Assembly (NCBI GenBank): GCA_900073065.1
Contig: FJOG01000013.1
Coordinates: 1,321,773 to 1,353,936 of the forward strand
Direction: 5' to 3'
From: Phialocephala subalpina
Taxonomy: Eukaryota > Ascomycota > Leotiomycetes > Helotiales > Mollisiaceae
Length of the DNA: 32,164 bases
Position numbers and translations under genes: made by a program. Positions 1-25,645 of this stretch are shown piece after piece. The notes beneath the pieces are model-generated. The model was not told the origin of the DNA and made no database searches. It worked only from the letters and a program-made list of their open reading frames with translations. Numbering within the stretch: the first letter of the stretch is position 1; the number at the start of each line of letters is the position of its first letter.

Positions 1-520
1 ATATTTTTATTTTTATTAATAAATAATGATTTATTATCTAATTAAAGGATCTTATATTAAGCCTTTTTATAAATAACTTTTATATATTTTTAATTTTACT
101 TTTTACTTTTAATATTTTAAATAATAATTAATAATTAATAATTAATAATTAATAATTAATTATATATTTTTATTTTATTTTATTAATTTACTTTAATTTA
201 TTTAAAGTTTAAGAAGATTTTATTTAATTTATTTTCAATTAAAAAATTTAAATTACTTTTTTGATTTTAATTTGCTTAGAAAAACTATTGCTATTATAAT
301 ATAATTTATTATTCTAATATATAAATAAAAAATTTAAATTTAAAATATAATTATATTAATTTAATAAAAACAATGAAAAAAAAAGTTATAAATATAATTT
401 AATATATAGTAAAGTCAAATACCAAGTTTTATATTAAACGAATAATTGGTCGCGTTATAATTAATTATTTAAAATAAATATTCGCGAAATTTTATGTTAC
501 GGTCTTATACACGTGACCTT
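1..520. repeat. AT-rich, RIP-like block
   Basis: The first ~520 bases are almost entirely A and T, with only scattered G or C, and no reading frame of useful length. Base composition changes sharply to normal near position 500-530. In Pezizomycotina such blocks are usually transposons destroyed by repeat-induced point mutation (C to T in repeated DNA). No transposon protein can be recognised, so the identity of the ancestral repeat is unknown. The block continues off the left edge of the window. Confidence 0.75.
121..160. repeat. 7-base tandem repeat (AATAATT)n
   Basis: About five consecutive copies of a 7-base unit, AATAATT, lie inside the AT-rich block. It is a simple microsatellite-like array with no apparent coding role. 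Confidence 0.8.
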
Positions 521-973
521 ACATTCCCTATATAGCATCTCTATAGCCGAGGTTTTCTTGATATCAAAACATCAACCATCAATATTATCATCACTACAAC
601 CAACCGTAACTTCCGTTACATTTTAAGTGTGCATTAAGTGGGAGTATATATTGACAAGGGAAATTGGTTACTGGGGAAAATGTCTAGGCAAGGTATAGAC
701 ATTCGGATCTCACGAATGTTCAAGCTCAACTTGGAGATTGAGCAGGCATCGATGTTCGGATTGGATTGGGGCGTGGAGATAATTTGATTGTTTGATACTG
801 GTTCGGACATTGAGCTCAAAACAATGTCCAGGAATGTTCAAGGGCAGTCGGCACTCGCGAATGTGCAAGTTCCAAGCAGAACATTGAGGAGCCGCAAATG
901 TCAGAGAGCTGCAGAGCGACAATTGTACCTAGCAAATTTTCAAATCCGACTTGAGATATTCAGCAAGTTGAGT
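521..973. other. Intergenic, no gene seen
   Basis: Sequence of normal composition between the AT-rich block and the 3' end of the minus-strand gene ending at 974. Short open frames here (for example 788-1261 on the plus strand) run into the antisense of the neighbouring gene and show no protein-like features. It would hold the 3' UTR of that gene. Confidence 0.5.
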
Positions 974-2020
974 TCATGGTGCCGTCACAGCAGCCATGAC
1001 CTCAATTACGCTGTCGAACTCCTCTTTAGGCGTCCTGCCCATACCACACTCTGTCGAGATCGCGAAGTTGTCCACGAACTTCCTCGCGACTTCGATTCTC
1101 TTCTCCGTGCCTTCCAGGTCCCAAGCATGTGCCAACCCAAGAATCAACTCACTCTCCGGTCCGAGCTTGAGATCCTTCAACGGCGCAAAATACGCATCAT
1201 CGACCCGGCCTTTCGGCACAGGCACATGAATCCAATCGAAATCCCTTCCTATACCGGCTGAGATGCTGTTTGCAAGCTCGACTAACAACAAGAGGTCTTT
1301 AGGCTCGATGAAATGCTTGTGTCCCCCATCTCCGTAGCAAAGATGAACACCCATCGGTACATCTCCATCAACACATTTCATAACCCTCACAGCCCGCTCA
1401 ATGACCCCTTCTTTGACAGGTGAAAACCATGGGTCGGAGAGGAATGGAGGTGTCCAATCTGGTTTTGTCTCGAATTTCGAAAATTCAATAAGTCCGATAT
1501 CCATCGCCATATCCCATTGAATAGCTAGATCTTCCTTGGGAATACTGTCTTGAATCCGGCGAGCGGCTGCTATCAACGCTTTCTCGTAGAATGGCTCGAC
1601 TTGGACTTGGTATTTTGGAAGTATGAGGCCGACTATGACGTTTGCGGGCGTTGGAAGACAGACTTGGAATCGTACTCCCTTTTGGATGACGCCGGAGTCG
1701 CGGAGGCGGCAAAACTCTTTGTACGAGTCCAAGGCAACGGAGTCGTAGCGGCAGTTGATGGGTTCGATTGTCCATGGGCTGGAGGGTTCTTCGTGGACTT
1801 CTCGCCCGTACCAGTTTGTTAGGAAGGGCTTGAAGCTTTCCCGTTGCCAGACTACGAAGTTGAAGCGGTCTCCTGTTTCGCCGTCGGGGATGCGGTGGAG
1901 TTGGGTGGGAAAGGTGGTGGAGAGGCGGGTGAACACTTCTTTGTTGGTTTCAAGGCAGACGCTGCCGACTATGTGCACATGGCGAGGTCGGTTTTCTGGC
2001 GCTGAGTTGGTTTCTGACAT
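974..2020 (-). CDS. UROD/MetE-like superfamily protein
   Basis: Single-exon gene of 348 residues starting at an ATG (2020-2018) and ending in TGA. The N-terminus has a glycine-containing opening strand (HIVGSVCLETN) followed by RIPDGETGDRFNFVVWQ. Mid-protein are PTPANVIVGLI and WDMAMDIGL, then GVHLCYGDGGHKHFIEP, and a C-terminal LGLAHAWDLEGTEKRIEVA and STECGMGRTP. This order of barrel-strand motifs, ending in a conserved Cys near the C-terminus, is that of the cobalamin-independent methionine synthase/uroporphyrinogen decarboxylase-like TIM barrel. At ~350 residues it is half the length of true MetE and lacks the N-terminal barrel, so it is probably not methionine synthase itself; fungi carry several such stand-alone homologues of unknown substrate. 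No signal peptide or membrane segment. The family call is fairly secure, the reaction is not known. Confidence 0.8.
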   Translation of the reverse strand: MSETNSAPENRPRHVHIVGSVCLETNKEVFTRLSTTFPTQLHRIPDGETGDRFNFVVWQRESFKPFLTNWYGREVHEEPSSPWTIEPINCRYDSVALDSYKEFCRLRDSGVIQKGVRFQVCLPTPANVIVGLILPKYQVQVEPFYEKALIAAARRIQDSIPKEDLAIQWDMAMDIGLIEFSKFETKPDWTPPFLSDPWFSPVKEGVIERAVRVMKCVDGDVPMGVHLCYGDGGHKHFIEPKDLLLLVELANSISAGIGRDFDWIHVPVPKGRVDDAYFAPLKDLKLGPESELILGLAHAWDLEGTEKRIEVARKFVDNFAISTECGMGRTPKEEFDSVIEVMAAVTAP

Positions 2021-5667: not shown

Positions 5668-6829
5668 CTAAATCCCAATGCGCCTCTCAACCTTTCTCTG
5701 CTTACGAATCCTTTTCGTCTCGTCATCCATAGCACAAGTCTCTACTTGAATGTCTGTCATTTTGTGCTTCCTCTTCATATGTCTCCTGCAATTGTCTTCT
5801 CGTGAAAACGGTGCTCCGCCCCATAGTATTGAACGTTTGCAATTGGAGATCGTGCAGTAGTACTTCTCGGCCCGAGTGTGACAAGAATTGATGTGCCGGT
5901 CAAGTTCTCGTTTTGTAGCGTGCCGAGCGGGGCATGTAGGGCATTGGAAAGCTAGGTTATGATACCTGCAGTGGTGGCTGTGGTGAAATTAGATACAGCC
6001 CAACGAAGTAAGAATGGAGAACGAACTTGTAGTCACTATTGGTGACAAATGTCTTGCAGCACGACGGCCATGTACATGTTATTCTGTTGGCGTCGGTTAA
6101 AGATGTCGGAGCCGGTGGGCTTGGTGCTTTTAAGGTCCCATGCCGGATTTTTGATGAGCCTGACTCGAGGGAAACTTCGGGCTTAGTAGAGAGGTCCGGT
6201 TTGTCCACGGCTAGAGGTATTCTTATAAGGGAAGCCAAAGGGGAATAATGAGAGCCGTGCAGAAAGGAGTCGGAAGCGGGAATAGAGGAGGCAGACGTTG
6301 AGCTAAAATTATTGTCTACTTCGGCGGCGGTAGAGATGTTGGTGATAGTTTCGGATTTGTAGAGAGTACTTGTGTCAAGATCAATTGAACCGGCCGTGGG
6401 TACAATCGTTGGGCTGTATAGGAAATGGGGGAAGCCGATAGAATCACCAGATGGAAAGAGAGTCGAGCCGCTATCAATGAAATGGGCCGTCGAGTGTGAT
6501 GGTGTGAAATCTGGGAAAGCTGTATGATTTGGAAAAGTGGAATCGTTTATAAGGTTGTTAAAAGACTCAATATGATGAGGATCCAGAAAGAGGTCAAAAG
6601 CCTCAGTACGGAAGCTAGCTTCTTGCCTACTAGAATCCAAACTCCACTCGCCGTTATGCGAGTGGGGTGGTGGGGTAGAGTAGGAGTTCGCCGAGACCAG
6701 GAAGGTTGATGGGAAGGGCCTGGAACTGCTGTTCCTGCCGGGAGAGGTACTGGCTGTCGTTGATCCGCACAGATGACAGGGCGAATTTAAAAGACAATGA
6801 TTTGTTTGAAATGTTGTGTCGTCGAACAC
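5668..6829 (-). CDS. C2H2 zinc-finger protein, 5' end unresolved
   Basis: Two exons: 6829-6027 and 5965-5668, separated by a 61-base intron (5966-6026, donor GTTCGT, acceptor CTGCAG). The splice restores the frame and completes the first finger. The N-terminal two thirds are Ser/Thr/Pro-rich and low in complexity, as in transcription-factor activation regions. The C-terminus carries a zinc-finger cluster: ITCTWPSCCKTF with H after 12 residues; FQCPTCPARHATKRELDRHI with spacing C-x2-C-x12-H-x4-H; and YYCTISNC ... RRHMKRKH with a longer loop. A basic tail follows. Probably a nuclear DNA-binding regulator. The 5' exon contains no in-frame ATG at all: position 6829 is only the most upstream point I mark. 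An ATG at 6952 is in frame but is separated by a TGA at 6901-6899. An upstream exon is missing or the gene is damaged. Confidence 0.7.
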
Positions 6830-17683: not shown

Positions 17684-18775
17684 TCAAGGACCATGAACAT
17701 GACCAGTCGCCGCTCCTATCTTGTCTCCTTCACCCATTGGAAAAGCAGGACCTATTGCGTCGGTCAGCATTTTCAAGCAGACCGCAAAGATAAGACGCAG
17801 CTGATGCTTTACTCACCTAACGTTGGATGCACCAGCCAACCAGGTTGCAACATATCAACCGATCTTTCTCTTGTCCACTGATCCAACTTCTCCCAGTTAA
17901 CGCATTGATGAGTCGTAGCATTAGCGATTGGAATCAGGTTCGTCGGAGACCACTCGAAAGTGATCAAGCCCACATCGCCATGACACATCGCACTCTGCCT
18001 GAGAAAGTCGATGCAATGCTCATTGTGTAATCTATTCATTTCTCTCTGGGAGTCATCGATGTCTGGAAAATAATGGTCCTGATACATATACTGGTGGATT
18101 CTCTTCTAATGTCATAGATCAGCAAACGTTAAGTTGGATGATGGAAAATTTCATTACCAGGCAGTGGATCTCGTGGTAGACGTTGAGAGTTCCAATGAAG
18201 TTCTCTTCTCCCGGTATTCGTACTCCAATTTGCTCTCTACCCAGGTGCTTCATTGTGTCTGAGTCCACACGAATGTTCTCGACTACAAGTAGTGTCAGCA
18301 GCTGGTGGCAGCTAAGTCCCCCAGAAGGGAATGGTGATCGAGTACGTACCGTTCAACAGATCATGCCAAGCACGATCCAACTCCTGGCTCGGCCTCCCTG
18401 AATATATGCTATCTTCTTGTATTGTGTCTCCGAGCTTGAACTTCCTTTCTTCCCAAAAAATTGCTTCGCGTGCGACTGCTGTTCTCATCAGCGAATATCC
18501 TGCATCAGCGAACAGATTGTACTAGATGGTGCCATACAGTGAATCAAGTCTGGTCCATGAATAGACAGTGAATTAATTTGGAGTGCCACAAAGTACATGA
18601 TCAGAGTCCAAAGTCCAAGGATAACCAACTGCGCCAGGACCATCATCTTATGACGTTGCCAGAAGGAGGCTTCGTATTGATACCGCGTCTGCCCTTTCTC
18701 AAGAAAACCTTCTTTAGAAGTAGCATCTTCTGACGTTTGTACCGCAAAGTATTGGTCGCTTTGACGCCCTTTCAT
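17684..18775 (-). CDS. UstYa-family (DUF3328) oxidase, copy 1
   Basis: Five exons: 18775-18538, 18478-18350, 18282-18158, 18105-17817 and 17751-17684, giving 282 residues. Introns are 52-67 bases with standard ends. The start is placed at the ATG before MKGRQSDQYF because the frame upstream of it looks non-coding. Residues 1-42 are a hydrophilic N-terminal tail; 43-65 form one membrane helix (MMVLAQLVILGLWTLIMYF); the rest is the lumenal domain. It carries the two family motifs, HEIHC (159-163) and HNEHC (191-195), followed by FLRQSAMCHGDVG and WLVHPTLG, plus YSGRPSQELDRAW. UstYa proteins of ustiloxin, phomopsin, asperipin and cyclochlorotine pathways catalyse oxidative cyclisation or hydroxylation on peptides, and the HxxHC motifs are needed for activity. 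Its neighbour at 19525 is a paralogue, and the precursor gene is at 21552. Confidence 0.9.
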
Positions 18776-19524: not shown

Positions 19525-20541
19525 TCACTCCATCACACCTTTCGACTCATCTTCACCATATACAGGTCCTAGCGTGGGATGAACAAGTAGCCCCGGCTCA
19601 AACATATCAACAGTCCGCTCATCCACCCACTCCGTCAATTTCTCAAAGTCTATACATTGATGAGATATCGCTTCAGCCTTGGGTTTCAAAGTATCATTTA
19701 CCCAGCTATACGGCACTATTCCAACATCGCCATGGCACATCGCCGTTGCTCGTAATTGATTCAGGCAGTGCTCTGCATGGATTCGGTTGGCCTCGAACTC
19801 CGTATTGTCTGCGTCCGGGAAGTAGTGATCATGGTACATGAACTTATGAAGCCACCTCTGCCTCATTCATCAGTCAACATTTCTCAAAGAAATTTAAGGC
19901 TCAATGACTGACTACACAATGTATCTCGTGAAATACATTCAAAGTCCCGACATATCCTGAGCCATCTGGAAGGAGGACAGCGTCCTCTTCACGACCAAAA
20001 TATCTCACTGCTTCCAGTGGGAGACGAATGTTCTGATCTATAAATGTTGATCACGTACGTTTAGCAAAGATCCCGCAAAGACATTTTGAGCAGGACTTAC
20101 TCCCAAGAAGTTTTCCCCACGCTTCTTCGAGCTCTGGTCGGGGATAGCCTGAATATGGACCGACACCATCTCCAAGATCGAAGACTTGTATTTGCCAACG
20201 TAGTGCTTCATTCGCAGGAGCTGTCATTGGTCAGCATGGAAGAATCCAGACACACGCTGAACGCATTTTTTTGGGAGGAGACTGAACGATACGAACGTAC
20301 AATAAAGGATATTTTGAATCTGCTGTGCAGTTTTCGACCAAGGTTTCAGGACGAGTAGAACAAGCGTTGAATACGCCAAGAACATAGAGAGATGAACACA
20401 GAAAGATTGAATGTATCGTCTCCAGAGCGGTTCGCGATCTATGTTTGTGGCAGGTTCGTCATTGAGGTGTTCTTTGCACAAGAGAGTAGTTTCAGAGGAA
20501 GCCCAGCCTGAAGGTCTTGGAGTGCCTTCTTCTTCATCCAT
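19525..20541 (-). CDS. UstYa-family (DUF3328) oxidase, copy 2
   Basis: Four exons: 20541-20301, 20220-20101, 20037-19913 and 19857-19525, giving 272 residues. The first three introns sit at the same positions and phases as in copy 1, and exon 3 is exactly 125 bases in both. The fifth exon of copy 1 has no counterpart; here the last exon reads straight through to the stop (LVHPTLGPVYGEDESKG). A cytoplasmic tail of about 46 residues precedes one membrane helix (FCVHLSMFLAYSTLVLLVL, about 47-65). The lumenal domain begins YSPANEALRWQIQVF, has YSGYPRPELEEAW, and carries HEIHC (157-161) and HAEHC (189-193), then LRATAMCHGDVGIVPYSW. Both catalytic motifs are intact. It is adjacent to and divergent from the repeat precursor, as expected for a peptide-modifying enzyme of the same pathway. 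Confidence 0.9.
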
Positions 20542-21551
20542 TGGAAGTGACCGTTCTTAAAAAATTGCGTTTGTGCTAATGCCAGACGAGTAATATGAGA
20601 ACGTTTGGGATGACGATCTATGTCGACAGCAGGTGAAATGTGTAATCGATCGAGCTATTCGGATCGGTAGTTGATGTCCATCAGTACCGTGCAATGTGCC
20701 GTTGCGGGGCCCTCAGAAACAGTGATGATAGATGTATGTATCACATATCGCTCGGATAGCCCCGGTAATATTGACCGGCTTTTGACATTCTTGGTTGGGT
20801 ACGGAAATCTGCTGCTATGCACTGTCAATGTGCCACCATCCATACATATGCTGTTCACGCCGAGAGCGGAAAGTAGTGATCCAATCGAGCGCAAATCATA
20901 TTTGAGCATGATTGAGGTTGTTCCGAATTCTCAGCGAAATGTGAAGAGTCGATGAAGTGGATGAGAATCATGTGACTGTACATGCTTTACTGCATCCCCA
21001 TGAATTTCGGTGTCTTTGACGACAAAATAACATAATTTGGAAATTTGTTACATATAAGAAATTATAAAAGGAAGCGCGCATTCTCGTCAAACCCTGAGGA
21101 TACTATTTTCAATGAAGCAGTAGCAAATTCCACGTGACCAGTGGTGGACGACTTCGGTGCTATGTTGGCAGCTGTGGGGAACATGACAATGCAGGGACAG
21201 AAACACAACTTAATCATAATACCAAATACACAGTCAAGAACCTGACCTTGAGGCGGTCTGGGTCTGCGAGCATGATCAAGGACTTGCACAACTTCGGTCT
21301 GCCCTTGAAGCAGCTCTAACTCGAGAAGCAGTCCACAGCGCAGATAACCGCTCCGTCTTAGTACATACGAGGTGGTACAAAAATTCAAACCGTGACCCGG
21401 AGCTCGTAGTAAACGTCAGACAGCAAGTGATAAAAAGAAGATAAATATCCAGAAAAGGCTCAAGGCACACACGCTGGGCAATCCAGAAACACAAATACAT
21501 CACCCGAACTTCAACACTCGCTATCTTCCTAGTTCTACCTAAAAAGTCAGA
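20542..21551. promoter_or_regulatory. Divergent promoter, UstYa copy 2 / RiPP precursor
   Basis: About 1 kb of non-coding DNA shared by the start of UstYa copy 2 (left, minus) and the precursor gene (right, plus). AGAACGTTTGGG lies at 20598-20609. A TATA-like GATAAATATCC lies about 105 bases upstream of the precursor ATG (21439-21450). A shared divergent promoter would let one regulator switch on enzyme and precursor together, which is inference. Confidence 0.5.
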
Positions 21552-22002
21552 ATGCGCTTTTCTTTGATCCTTCTCCCAGCCATGGTTGCTCTTACTACAG
21601 CAGCTGCTATTCCTAGTAAGTACACTTCGAGGTTCGCTCATGTAGCTTTGACTGACTCGGTGCAAAGATGGACTTATAGGACTTGCCGTTCGTGCTGATG
21701 CTGATACTGCCACGCTGTACAAGACCAACAAGAGAGCCGACGCAGATACTGCTACTCTGTATAAGACGAACAAGCGAGCAGATGCCGATACAGCAACTTT
21801 GTACAAAACCAATAAGCGAGAGCCGGCCGACGCCGATACGGCCACTCTGTACAAGACGAACAAGCGTGCCCCAGCTGATGCCGACTCAGCCACACTCTAC
21901 AAGACCAACAAGCGAGTAGATGCCGACTCCGCTACTTTGTATAAGACCAACAAACGAGTTCCCGCCGATGCTAACTCTGCCACTCTTTACAAGACCAACT
22001 AA
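21552..22002 (+). CDS. RiPP precursor peptide, seven KEX2-separated repeats
   Basis: Two exons, 21552-21615 and 21680-22002, with a 64-base intron (donor GTAAGT, acceptor TATAG); 128 residues. An alternative acceptor 12 bases earlier (CAAAG) is also in frame and would add four residues. Residues 1-19 are a signal peptide (MRFSLILLPAMVALTTAAA). Residues 27-128 are seven repeats of 14-16 residues, each ending ATLYKTN; the first six are followed by Lys-Arg and the seventh ends at the stop codon. The consensus is ADADTATLYKTNKR. Lys-Arg is the cleavage site of the Golgi protease Kex2. Signal peptide, Kex2-spaced repeats and neighbouring UstYa genes together define the dikaritin/KEP class of fungal RiPP precursors. 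The likely product is a cyclic peptide built from a core around the Tyr of TLYKTN. The core differs from those I know (ustiloxin YAIG, phomopsin YVIPID, asperipin FYYTGY). A mating-pheromone precursor is less likely. Confidence 0.9.
21694..21999 (+). repeat. Seven coding repeats of the RiPP precursor
   Basis: Units of 42, 42, 42, 48, 48, 42 and 42 bases. Leaders differ (ADAD three times, then EPADAD, APADAD, VDAD and VPADAN), while the core ATLYKTN is identical in all seven. Codons vary: Leu uses CTG, TTG, CTC and CTT; Tyr uses TAC and TAT; Thr and Asn also alternate. Identical amino acids with differing codons indicate selection on the peptide, not recent DNA duplication. Confidence 0.95.
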
Positions 22003-22713: not shown

Positions 22714-24873
22714 CTACACCAAACAGATGATCTCTTTCTTCAGCAATCCATCTCTCCATCGCGTAGCAGCAAAATTATCCTCGCCCTCCCACATGAGTTC
22801 GCGTACATAACACGGTCCAACGAGTTTGTACGTCCCAAACATATCCGTCGGTCGTAAAAGCAGTGGCATTCCGCAGCCAAACACAACCACAAGAACATCA
22901 CCAGGCTCAAGAATTCCAGGTCCAAGACCACAGCTACCGCCGAGAGTGGTGAAGAATTCCCTTCCTCCGCTATTGATATTCATCTCGGCGAGATAGGCAT
23001 GCCCGTCCGGCGGGCGAAGTTTCATCTGTTCAACTTCAGGGTCGAAATAAGGGTCATTCGTTGCTTTTTTGTGGAATTCGGGATCGGTTTCAGCGCACCA
23101 GGCTAGAAAGTCTTGCTTGATACGTTTTGGGATCCGATACATGCCATTCACCAATGTCCAAATGAAGAAACGCCAATGATTCTCGTCTATTTCCACATTG
23201 GCTGATTGTAGAGCGTCCTGGTAGATCTCGTAAAGGCTTCGGACGGTGTGGGAATTAGGTCCAACAGACTTTCCTTCGAGACTTGCATCTCTGGGTGTAA
23301 ACTGCTGCGAGTGACGATCGACTTTGTCAACTAGCAGAGCCTCGACGGAGAGCTTGTTACCCGACACATCCATGATGATCTCTTTCCGATCAACTTTCAG
23401 GCCTGTGAAATCCGGGTGGAAAGGCGAGCAAGGCGTTATGTTTCTGTGCCATTGAGGCACCCACGATGGCAGTGATGCAGAGGAAACGAGATCATCTTGT
23501 GCATTATCGACGAAACACAGCAGATCTAATCCTTGGCTCTCGAGCAAGATTTTCTCGGCCATGCGGAGGTGTATTACTGATAGACTCAAGGTATAGTCGG
23601 CATCGATCAAGCCCTGCAGTGAAGGGTGCCCCAGGAAGGCAAAAATATGGTCTTGCGGTATCGTTGCGTGGAGAAGGCGACTAGATTCGAGAATAGTTAG
23701 AGATATTAATGCGTCACTTCCATAGTGGTAGTTGGCAAGCTCTCGCAATATCCATACTTCTTTATCGTTGATCCACGATTCATGCCGTCCTATCTTCGAC
23801 CAGACGGAGTCGAATAAATCACTAGTCATTCCTGTCCCTGAGCTATCGCCCACAATCAGGGTCTCCGCACAGATTTCAGCGTAAAGGGCAATCTCGCTCC
23901 ATTGGATCGATGCTTTTCCAACGAATGCTTTGGCCTGTGCCGACCTAGACAAATTTCAAAGTCAGTGGGCGGGTTTCATCCGTTTCGGTATGAAGAGCTG
24001 TATGGTTGAGAAAAGTGATGAGAAATGAATTAGGTTGGGAGTAAGTCAGACTGGAGCCTCTACGGCCCGAGAAGCTGAGACTTACAGGGTAATATCTCAT
24101 GATATGTGCTTTATTGAATATTTCTAGGTGAAGAGTTAAGTGTCCGGGGATTTGCGGGACACCAACGGTTGCAGACTCTAGAGATATGAAAGAGAGTGTG
24201 AAACATACAAGCCGACTTCCATAACTACCCAACAACGTGAAAACCATGGGCGCTTGAAGAAACCCTGCAAGCATCGCCGTCGCCTTTTCTCGGACCACAA
24301 CACAAGCTCAGGAGGCATCGACGGTATTCGACGCATGCTCTCAAAGATATGCTGATCGCTCGTCCTGTCCATGTCCATAATTCGTGACTGTATGCACCGA
24401 TTCAGCTGCTTCATCATCGCAAACGAAGTCTCCGCACATCCTGATTCAGTCATGGCACAATCGTCATGCTCGTCATGCTCGTCATGCTCGCCCAGCCAGA
24501 TTAAGGTACAGCTCCCATGCTCGTATATATTGCTCATAAATCCAACTTGATGGCCCTTCTCCAAGTCGTCGCTTTGGTTGATGCAAATACCATCTGCCCA
24601 AAGAAGTCTCGGCTCAGCCTGCTGTCGGAATCGTCGCAGAGCTTGAAACAAAGTCTTTGTGATGGACATCGAATCGCCATTGCAGGTAATCTCGTGGGAC
24701 ATTGTCGGATCTTCCCATGCGTAGGAGATTGGTTCGTAGCTAGGCGCGGTGTCGAGCTCATAGGTGAGCAATTCGCATTGTATGGGGTCCTCGAAAGCGC
24801 CTGGTAGCAACTTCAGCGCCCTGAAGTATCGCCCGTGCGGTAATGAACTGTGCGCGAATGTAGCCTTCGTCAT
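22714..24873 (-). CDS. HET-domain (heterokaryon incompatibility) protein
   Basis: Two exons, 24873-24209 and 23944-22714, giving 631 residues. The HET domain spans about residues 45-225: it opens YEPISYAWEDP, has LLWADGICINQSDDLEKGHQ and SCTLIWLGEH, and ends WFSRCWVVMEVGL. These three blocks are the diagnostic HET motifs. The intron is 264 bases, long for this window; it has donor GTATGT and acceptor TCTAG and restores the frame, but a small internal exon might be hidden in it. The C-terminal part contains DFTGLKVDRKEI and a closing DVLVVVFGCGMPLLLRP, typical of the tail of this family. A GTCATGCTC microsatellite (about 24463-24490) encodes a short Glu-His-Asp run. HET proteins trigger cell death after fusion of unlike hyphae; many copies in fungal genomes have unknown roles. 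It converges on the RiPP precursor gene. Confidence 0.85.
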
Positions 24874-25645
24874 TTCGATGCTATGAGTTGATTCTCAATT
24901 ACCTGTGCTGCGAGCGGTGCGTTGATAGTTAATAAGAAAGAAGTTGGGGGTTGTCGCCTGGAAAAAGAAAGGGAAAGACTGCATCTTCCTTCTGCAGGTT
25001 GGTGAGGCTGCTGCGCATGCATCAGAACGAATCACAGTGTCTGAATCCGGTGAGCGTTTACTGTGTTACAACAGATAGAGTTCGATGAAGAGCGCACGCA
25101 ATACGGACCACAAGAAAGCAGCGAGGTCGAATTATGAAGCAAATGCCCTGACTTCATAATGATCATAAGCCCTCCAAATCATGACATACAACCTAGAAGA
25201 ACCTTGCAAACGAAATTCAAAGGCAACTCGAATGCTAGAACAGACTCTTCAAATAGCAGCAGGAAGAAATAAATGACTAGGAACAGAAACGATAAATAAC
25301 ATCCTGTCCAAATAACTCATGTTCAAAAGTGAAGAACTTTCTTCCAGTTGGTCCAAGGAAAGAGAGCAATCAAAACAATCCCGACGCGCGGGTGACCTCC
25401 TCATTGCTTACCTCATTCCACCTGACTTTCAAATCAAACAATCAATCTCTCATCCGCTTATCGATAACACATCCCCTGCAACCCACCGGCTCGACCAAAT
25501 GCCGAGGTCTTCGCACGAGCTGTTGATCTAGACTCACCTGCTTCATAATAACACTCGAAACGCTTTACAAACCAAACATCAGATTCCTCGCATGTCACTG
25601 ACTTCTTCAGCCTAAGCTTTCGCAACGCAAGAGTACATAAGGTTC
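24874..25645. promoter_or_regulatory. Divergent promoter, HET / glutathione peroxidase
   Basis: About 770 bases between two divergent start codons. No gene is visible. Frames at 25319-25531 lack support. The last 60 bases before the peroxidase ATG form a short leader. No clear regulatory motif. Confidence 0.45.

Follow-up and report, generated by a model that had tools for sequence, protein, structure and literature searches.

A gene for a seven-copy peptide precursor and two neighboring UstYa/DUF3328 genes likely work together as a small dikaritin-like RiPP cluster in Phialocephala subalpina (Helotiales, Mollisiaceae), a root endophyte (PMC5148876). We analyzed a 32,164-nucleotide stretch of contig C112 (C112:1321773-1353936; hereafter, the window) and searched the whole assembly (68.1 Mb, 119 contigs). 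The repeat architecture of the precursor, its seemingly selected core, the adjacent UstYa genes, and the precursor's relatives make the RiPP reading well supported and a mating pheromone unlikely. The precursor family is already known, and this locus adds a new example to it, not a new class. Within the scope of our searches, the novel elements are the YKTN-tailed core, a gene that apparently lacks annotation, and a small cluster whose contig gave no tyrosinase or S41 peptidase match.

A predicted two-exon gene encodes a seven-copy repeat precursor

The initial annotation had described seven repeats with an invariant ATLYKTN core and Lys-Arg spacing, and the spliced reading frame confirmed both this layout and its placement at 21552-22002 (+). 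In our sequence-based model, two exons encode 128 residues (Table 1). The N-terminus is a predicted signal peptide, with a mean hydropathy of 2.0 across residues 3-19. The array, detected independently by Tandem Repeats Finder, carries the identical core in all seven units, which are separated by six Lys-Arg pairs. Unit 7 ends at LYKTN, without Lys-Arg; with the stop codon directly after this last copy, the free C-terminus of the peptide is probably Asn. The stretch before the core is variable: A, V, EPA, APA, or VPA stands ahead of DA(D/N), with DAN instead of DAD in one copy. Three of the seven units open with X-Pro, and the other four open with AD or VD, not with X-Ala or X-Pro.

Table 1. 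Predicted features of the precursor gene and its UstYa neighbors (window positions)
Feature	Position	Strand	Remarks
UstYa_B	17684..18775	-	5 exons (18775-18538, 18475-18350, 18282-18158, 18105-17817, 17751-17684), 281 aa
UstYa_A	19525..20541	-	4 exons (20541-20301, 20220-20101, 20037-19913, 19857-19525), 272 aa
Region between divergent start codons of precursor and UstYa_A	20542..21551	.	1,010 bases
Precursor exon 1	21552..21615	+	ATG at 21552
Predicted signal peptide	21552-21608	+	Hydrophobic N-terminus MRFSLILLPAMVALTTAAA; from hydropathy and position
Precursor intron	21616..21679	+	64 bases; GTAAGT...ATAG (GT-AG), one CTGAC branch-like site inside
Precursor exon 2	21680..22002	+	Spliced frame; includes stop codon TAA (22000-22002)
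Repeat array in exon 2	21694-21999	+	
Unit 1	21694..21729	+	ADADTATLYKTN; preceded by V-R
Unit 2	21736..21771	+	ADADTATLYKTN
Unit 3	21778..21813	+	ADADTATLYKTN
Unit 4	21820..21861	+	EP-ADADTATLYKTN
Unit 5	21868..21909	+	AP-ADADSATLYKTN
Unit 6	21916..21951	+	VDADSATLYKTN
Unit 7	21958..21999	+	VP-ADANSATLYKTN; stop codon directly after

At least 11 substitutions are needed among the seven 21-base copies of the core, and all are synonymous. Of the eight columns that vary, seven fall on third codon positions and one on a Leu first position. When changes are treated as independent, the probability that all would be synonymous is ~3e-7 for uniform changes and 2e-5 if all were transitions. Such synonymous-only change suggests purifying selection on the peptide itself, and the ATLYKTN core thus looks to be under selection.

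The precursor was not returned from the public protein collection in searches that each scored ~7,990 candidates sharing most words. The gene probably lacks an annotation or has one that differs greatly in length; its seeming absence from the public protein set illustrates how annotation can hide such genes.

A structural, cell-wall, or repellent-type repeat protein is another reading; repetitive secreted proteins of this sort, such as the Rep1 repellent, are also cut by Kex2. The short polar units with one Tyr each, and the UstYa neighbors described below, make such a role barely credible.

Two UstYa/DUF3328 genes adjoin the precursor gene

UstYa_A is divergent from the precursor gene, and UstYa_B lies beyond UstYa_A. 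In a splice model predicted from sequence, UstYa_A matches PF11807 with an E value of 6e-50 (170.5 bits; cut-off, 25) and carries the motifs HEIHC and HAEHC. UstYa_B matches the same family with an E value of 1.5e-56 (192.2 bits; cut-off, 25) and carries HEIHC and HNEHC; in a protein search, its spliced model was identical at 281 of 281 residues to PAC_09217 of P. subalpina. The two proteins are 42% identical across 243 columns. The intergenic region between UstYa_A and the precursor gene is a probable shared promoter. The chance that a random point falls 1.1 kb or less from a UstYa place is ~0.0015, a figure that uses 33 UstYa places grouped by eye from PF11807 matches. Across the whole genome, the 56 such matches in 33 places represent a large UstYa repertoire for one endophyte.

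DUF3328 proteins are described as a binuclear copper family in which the HxxHC pair is the metal site, and CctR site mutants are reported to be inactive (PMC12435403). In an alignment of 31 proteins (UstYa_A and 30 of the 81 UstYa_B hits, chosen by us), every His and Cys of the HxxHC pair (four and two residues, respectively) was invariant. With another choice (38 of the 81 hits), the His/Cys at 193 and 194 were conserved at 90% or more. Two HxxHC motifs were present in 62 of the 81 hits, one in 14, and none in 5. An AlphaFold2 model of UstYa_B (mean pLDDT, 72.1; pTM, 0.57; moderate confidence) has a long helix at 43-71, which, as expected, fits a membrane anchor, and places the HxxHC motifs on helices 155-170 and 181-205. 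This modeled layout is in line with that of CctR as described in PMC12435403. A sequence search at E 0.1 found no solved structure of a UstYa_B relative.

These two genes greatly strengthen the earlier proposal that the precursor has the Kex2-type layout of dikaritin pathways. In the survey of Umemura 2020 (PMC7329392), DUF3328 genes peak adjacent to repeat-precursor genes, and Tyr occurs in 65.6% of repeats with a DUF3328 neighbor vs 38.2% of those without. UstYa proteins are also described to hydroxylate, to halogenate, or to serve non-RiPP pathways (PMC12048977, PMC12435403), so their presence does not entail cyclization.

A RiPP cluster that has fallen silent or is decaying would account for the seeming absence of the precursor from the annotated proteome and for the lack of other identified tailoring genes. 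However, the seven copies are intact, core changes are only synonymous, the splice signals are intact, and each of the two UstYa genes has both HxxHC motifs. We consider such a relic very unlikely.

The UstYa neighbors also bear on whether the gene encodes an alpha-type mating pheromone precursor, which would have a similar Kex2-repeat layout; X-Pro also follows KR in three of the seven copies, which may fit that reading. In contrast, the ATLYKTN core contains neither Cys nor Trp, and Leotiomycete pheromones are described as having two conserved Cys residues (PMC6339444). In Umemura 2020 (PMC7329392), 98.6% of 216 pheromones have no DUF3328 neighbor, and type G-2, which includes a Phialocephala, has one in 1 of 138 cases. 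On core chemistry, UstYa neighbors, and these published statistics, we ruled out the pheromone as extremely improbable. A genome scan for the pheromone core WCxxxGQxC gave 6 matches, the same number as the reversed control, and four were stop-free. The one match that we inspected, L014, held no repeat precursor, and the pheromone gene was not located.

Relatives of the precursor share a published repeat motif

A single-sequence search returned a Chaenotheca gracillima protein (P0001) and one metagenomic protein. A profile built from these two and the window precursor returned five further relatives, including Akanthomyces muscarius LMH87_005652 and a protein of Nemania serpens. All seven relatives (Akanthomyces, Nemania, Chaenotheca, and metagenomes) have DADxA(T/S)xY-type repeats, with at least one D-A-D-x-A-x-x-Y unit adjoining basic pairs in each. 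The initial annotation had named close homologs with a pheromone or structural role as evidence that would count against it, and no such role appeared among the seven. P0001 is publicly labeled a transcriptional activator, likely a mislabel of a DADxA(T/S) repeat precursor.

We compared 15 four-residue tails from eight proteins, the window precursor among them, counting each distinct tail once per protein. Val occupies the third position, counted from the aromatic, in 8 tails, Thr in 3, and Ile in 1; Ala, Arg, and Gln each occur once. The search expression behind this count overlooked at least one tail (YQVT, P0001) and included one that spans a basic pair (YKRA, P0087). Twelve of these 15 tails thus have a beta-branched residue two places after the aromatic.

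In Akanthomyces, the precursor LMH87_005652 and the UstYa gene LMH87_005650 are two locus tags apart, and in Chaenotheca, the precursor and UstYa M4579_007183 are both on contigs of 7,026 bases. Judging from locus tags and equal contig sizes, the precursor-UstYa pairing apparently recurs in these two genera, the two of the seven relatives for which context was seen. As for pairing of UstYa_A-like with UstYa_B-like proteins elsewhere, 5 of the 81 hits score higher against UstYa_A than against UstYa_B, in a collection biased for this count by the use of UstYa_B as the query. One of them, Hypoxylon trugodes P0059, is on a contig equal in size to that of a UstYa_B-like hit. We set this pairing aside as thin.

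Le Marquer et al. 2019 (PMC6339444) printed DADAATXYV[A/V]D (KEP motif 3), a repeat motif conserved in Pezizomycotina; the portion of that paper available to us assigns it no product or enzyme. Like this motif, the window precursor has a DAD[T/S]AT-x-Y unit between KR pairs and a signal-like N-terminus, and the profile search joins it to relatives with YVVD, YAVD, YKAD, and YPVG tails. The pattern DADxA[T/S]-x-Y before KR is present in the array, with the single DAN copy as a variant. The window precursor differs in its post-Tyr tail, which is KTN in all seven copies rather than V[A/V]D, and in the X-Pro before three units. Therefore, the initial view that the core is unlike known ones applies to the YKTN tail, new as far as searched, but not to the DADxATxY unit, which falls within the motif printed in 2019. 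That motif, with no enzyme assigned in the text available, is now tied to a specific UstYa-family gene pair.

In the open-licence listings and text passages covered by our searches, we found no product assigned to a TLYKTN core. Term searches of the main text of papers on the P. subalpina genome and transcriptome found no DUF3328, and in the genome paper neither RiPP nor ustiloxin. Umemura type G-6 is described as Tyr- and Asp-rich (PMC7329392); 10 of its 19 listed genera are also among the named UstYa_B hits, as counted by eye, and we do not claim that this type and the window motif are identical. Further clusters have been reported by lichen and Venturia surveys (PMC12048977; PMC9632046).

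The surrounding region fits a minimal cluster

None of the at least 53 tyrosinase matches listed genome-wide, and none of the at least 9 S41 peptidase matches listed, is on contig C112. We scanned 22 of the window's 67 stop-to-stop frames (≥100 aa), together with three spliced proteins, against Pfam. The matches (HET, DAO, glutathione peroxidase, GFO_IDH_MocA, and DHDPS) include no obvious RiPP enzyme. Among methyltransferases, transporters, and zinc-finger regulators, the scanned frames gave only a zinc finger below the cut-off (5671-5988).

The HET-domain match is in frame 24178-24894 (-), which contains a 9-base repeat, TCGTCATGC, at 24461-24490. The adjoining frame, 22714-23955 (-), has no Pfam match and may continue the HET-domain gene. 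The first kilobase of the window (1-1000) is 26% GC, vs 45-52% in the other 1-kb steps, and contains TAATTAA-type arrays; it is possibly a repeat-mutated transposon remnant.

By the broad definition of a dikaritin, the locus has a predicted signal peptide (by hydropathy), several cores separated by Kex2 sites, and clustered UstYa/DUF3328 genes with HxxHC(x)nHxxHC. Since neither a tyrosinase homolog (UstQ/PhomQ) nor an S41 peptidase was found on the contig, the locus falls outside the stricter phomopsin-like gene set as given in PMC6514808. Its predicted gene content fits a dikaritin cluster of a minimal kind, with membership under the broad definition alone.

Other repeat precursors are located beside UstYa genes

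A scan of 22 stretches, covering 19 of the 33 UstYa places (one stretch, L044, stops at a contig end), identified at least five repeat precursors beside UstYa genes when only unbroken frames were considered. A search with P0085 for a second member of the DADxA(T/S)xY motif in the genome found only the window's precursor.

Four of the scanned stretches have the following units. In L010 (1498-1995, -; C34:1607464-1607799), a precursor with (E)DA(D/N)(A/T)GMSF(Y/H)KE units is beside a UstYa gene whose HQLHC and HLDHC pieces are in L046. It shares the D-A-(D/N) spacer with the window precursor, and its core, GMSF(Y/H)KE, differs. On C112, ~71 kb to the right of the window cluster, LEYNDNNAVEKRDLPA units are located between two UstYa matches (L038, 6844-7113, -). 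Contig C43 carries both ADL(S/G)ALVDDELYASYDK units ~1 kb from a UstYa match (L041, 2841-3224, +) and a Tyr-rich, three-copy DVGIYSYYA(V/T/P)PRKDKDKR array ~1.5 kb from a UstYa match (L026, 6786-7052, +).

Predicted processing of the precursor

We propose that the precursor protein enters the secretory pathway, where Kex2 would cut at Lys-Arg and Kex1 would trim the basic pair. A Ste13-like dipeptidase may remove the X-Pro dipeptides EP, AP, and VP from three copies, a step with suggestive support. All seven copies would then give one 12-residue peptide form, (A/V)DA(D/N)(T/S)ATLYKTN. UstYa_A and UstYa_B, predicted copper oxidases, would cross-link it oxidatively at the single Tyr in the Golgi. 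The product is likely a small cross-linked peptide and probably ring-shaped.

Among 27 complete repeat units found by pattern expression, which are non-independent and leave out the first window unit (12 residues, after V-R), 25 have an even length. The odd-length units are one in P0085 with an internal RR, which would be 12 residues if cut there, and a true 13-mer in Chaenotheca. Because the units are non-independent and the first window unit lay outside the count, we take this even-length ladder as a hint of Ste13 trimming rather than as proof.

The same X-Pro dipeptides are relevant to an alternative in which the precursor yields linear, unmodified secreted signaling or effector peptides and the UstYa genes serve something else. 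In the sections of Le Marquer et al. available to us (PMC6339444), Ste13 signatures are taken as a hormone-like sign and are reported absent from cyclic-tetrapeptide, epichloecyclin, and ustiloxin-type precursors. Because of this link to hormone-like peptides, X-Pro in three of seven units points away from a cyclic peptide. In addition, 6,120 of the 7,878 repeat precursors counted by Umemura 2020 have no DUF3328 neighbor, and 1,758 do (PMC7329392). Against linear peptides, two UstYa genes adjoin the precursor gene, one of them divergently; the pairing is apparent in two other genera; and each unit has a single Tyr, with an aromatic residue also in the relatives. We give the linear alternative a small chance and favor the cross-linked peptide.

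The cross-link itself may be unusual. In ATLYKTN, Thr is the second residue after Tyr. We take the Ile of phomopsin to sit at the same third tail place as that of ustiloxin. In both compounds, Ile is reported to be linked to Tyr (PMC9233826, PMC6514808). By chemical reasoning, an ether formed at the Thr beta carbon would amount to an unstable hemiketal. With Thr where ustiloxin and phomopsin link Ile, another partner or another link would be expected. Leu, Lys, and Thr close to the Tyr are the candidate partners.

A broader reading is possible but doubtful: DADxAT-x-Y-x-(V/T)-x precursors would be widespread and represent a chemically uncharted branch of fungal UstYa RiPPs, cyclized by a pair of enzymes that needs no tyrosinase. 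In this reading, the product from Phialocephala would be a ring peptide, released into conifer roots, with a new type of Tyr cross-link, since Thr cannot hold a stable beta-carbon ether.

The locus is appealing as a two-UstYa system with an unusual tail and no clustered tyrosinase. It could help reveal whether such UstYa pairs can function when no tyrosinase is clustered with them, and which peptide an endophyte of conifer roots may secrete.

Comparison with known systems

The ustiloxin cluster (UstA, UstYa, UstYb, UstQ) likewise combines a repeat precursor with two DUF3328 proteins, and UstA is presumed to yield 13- to 14-mers on Kex2 cleavage (PMC6514808). The residue two after the aromatic is beta-branched in ustiloxin (Ile in YAIG), as it is in most window-family tails. 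In contrast, the window has no identified tyrosinase, methyltransferase, or other tailoring gene, its core and flanks differ, and Thr replaces Ile.

Epichloecyclins (GigA) are similar in that they come from an endophyte and have KR-separated repeats. Their cyclization is reported to occur on Tyr and a modified Lys (PMC9233826, PMC6514808). They are nonapeptides, reported to have a link between Ile and Tyr, whereas the window unit has no Ile.

The asperipin-2a cluster (AprA, AprY, AprR, AprT) is likewise small; its four listed genes include a DUF3328 cyclase and lack a tyrosinase (PMC6514808), indicating that a tyrosinase is not always within the cluster. It has one DUF3328 protein and a bicyclic FYYTGY core with Tyr ether links, whereas the window has two DUF3328 proteins and one Tyr per unit. 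By analogy of gene content, asperipin-2a is a nearer model for the predicted Phialocephala cluster than are the phomopsin-type clusters.
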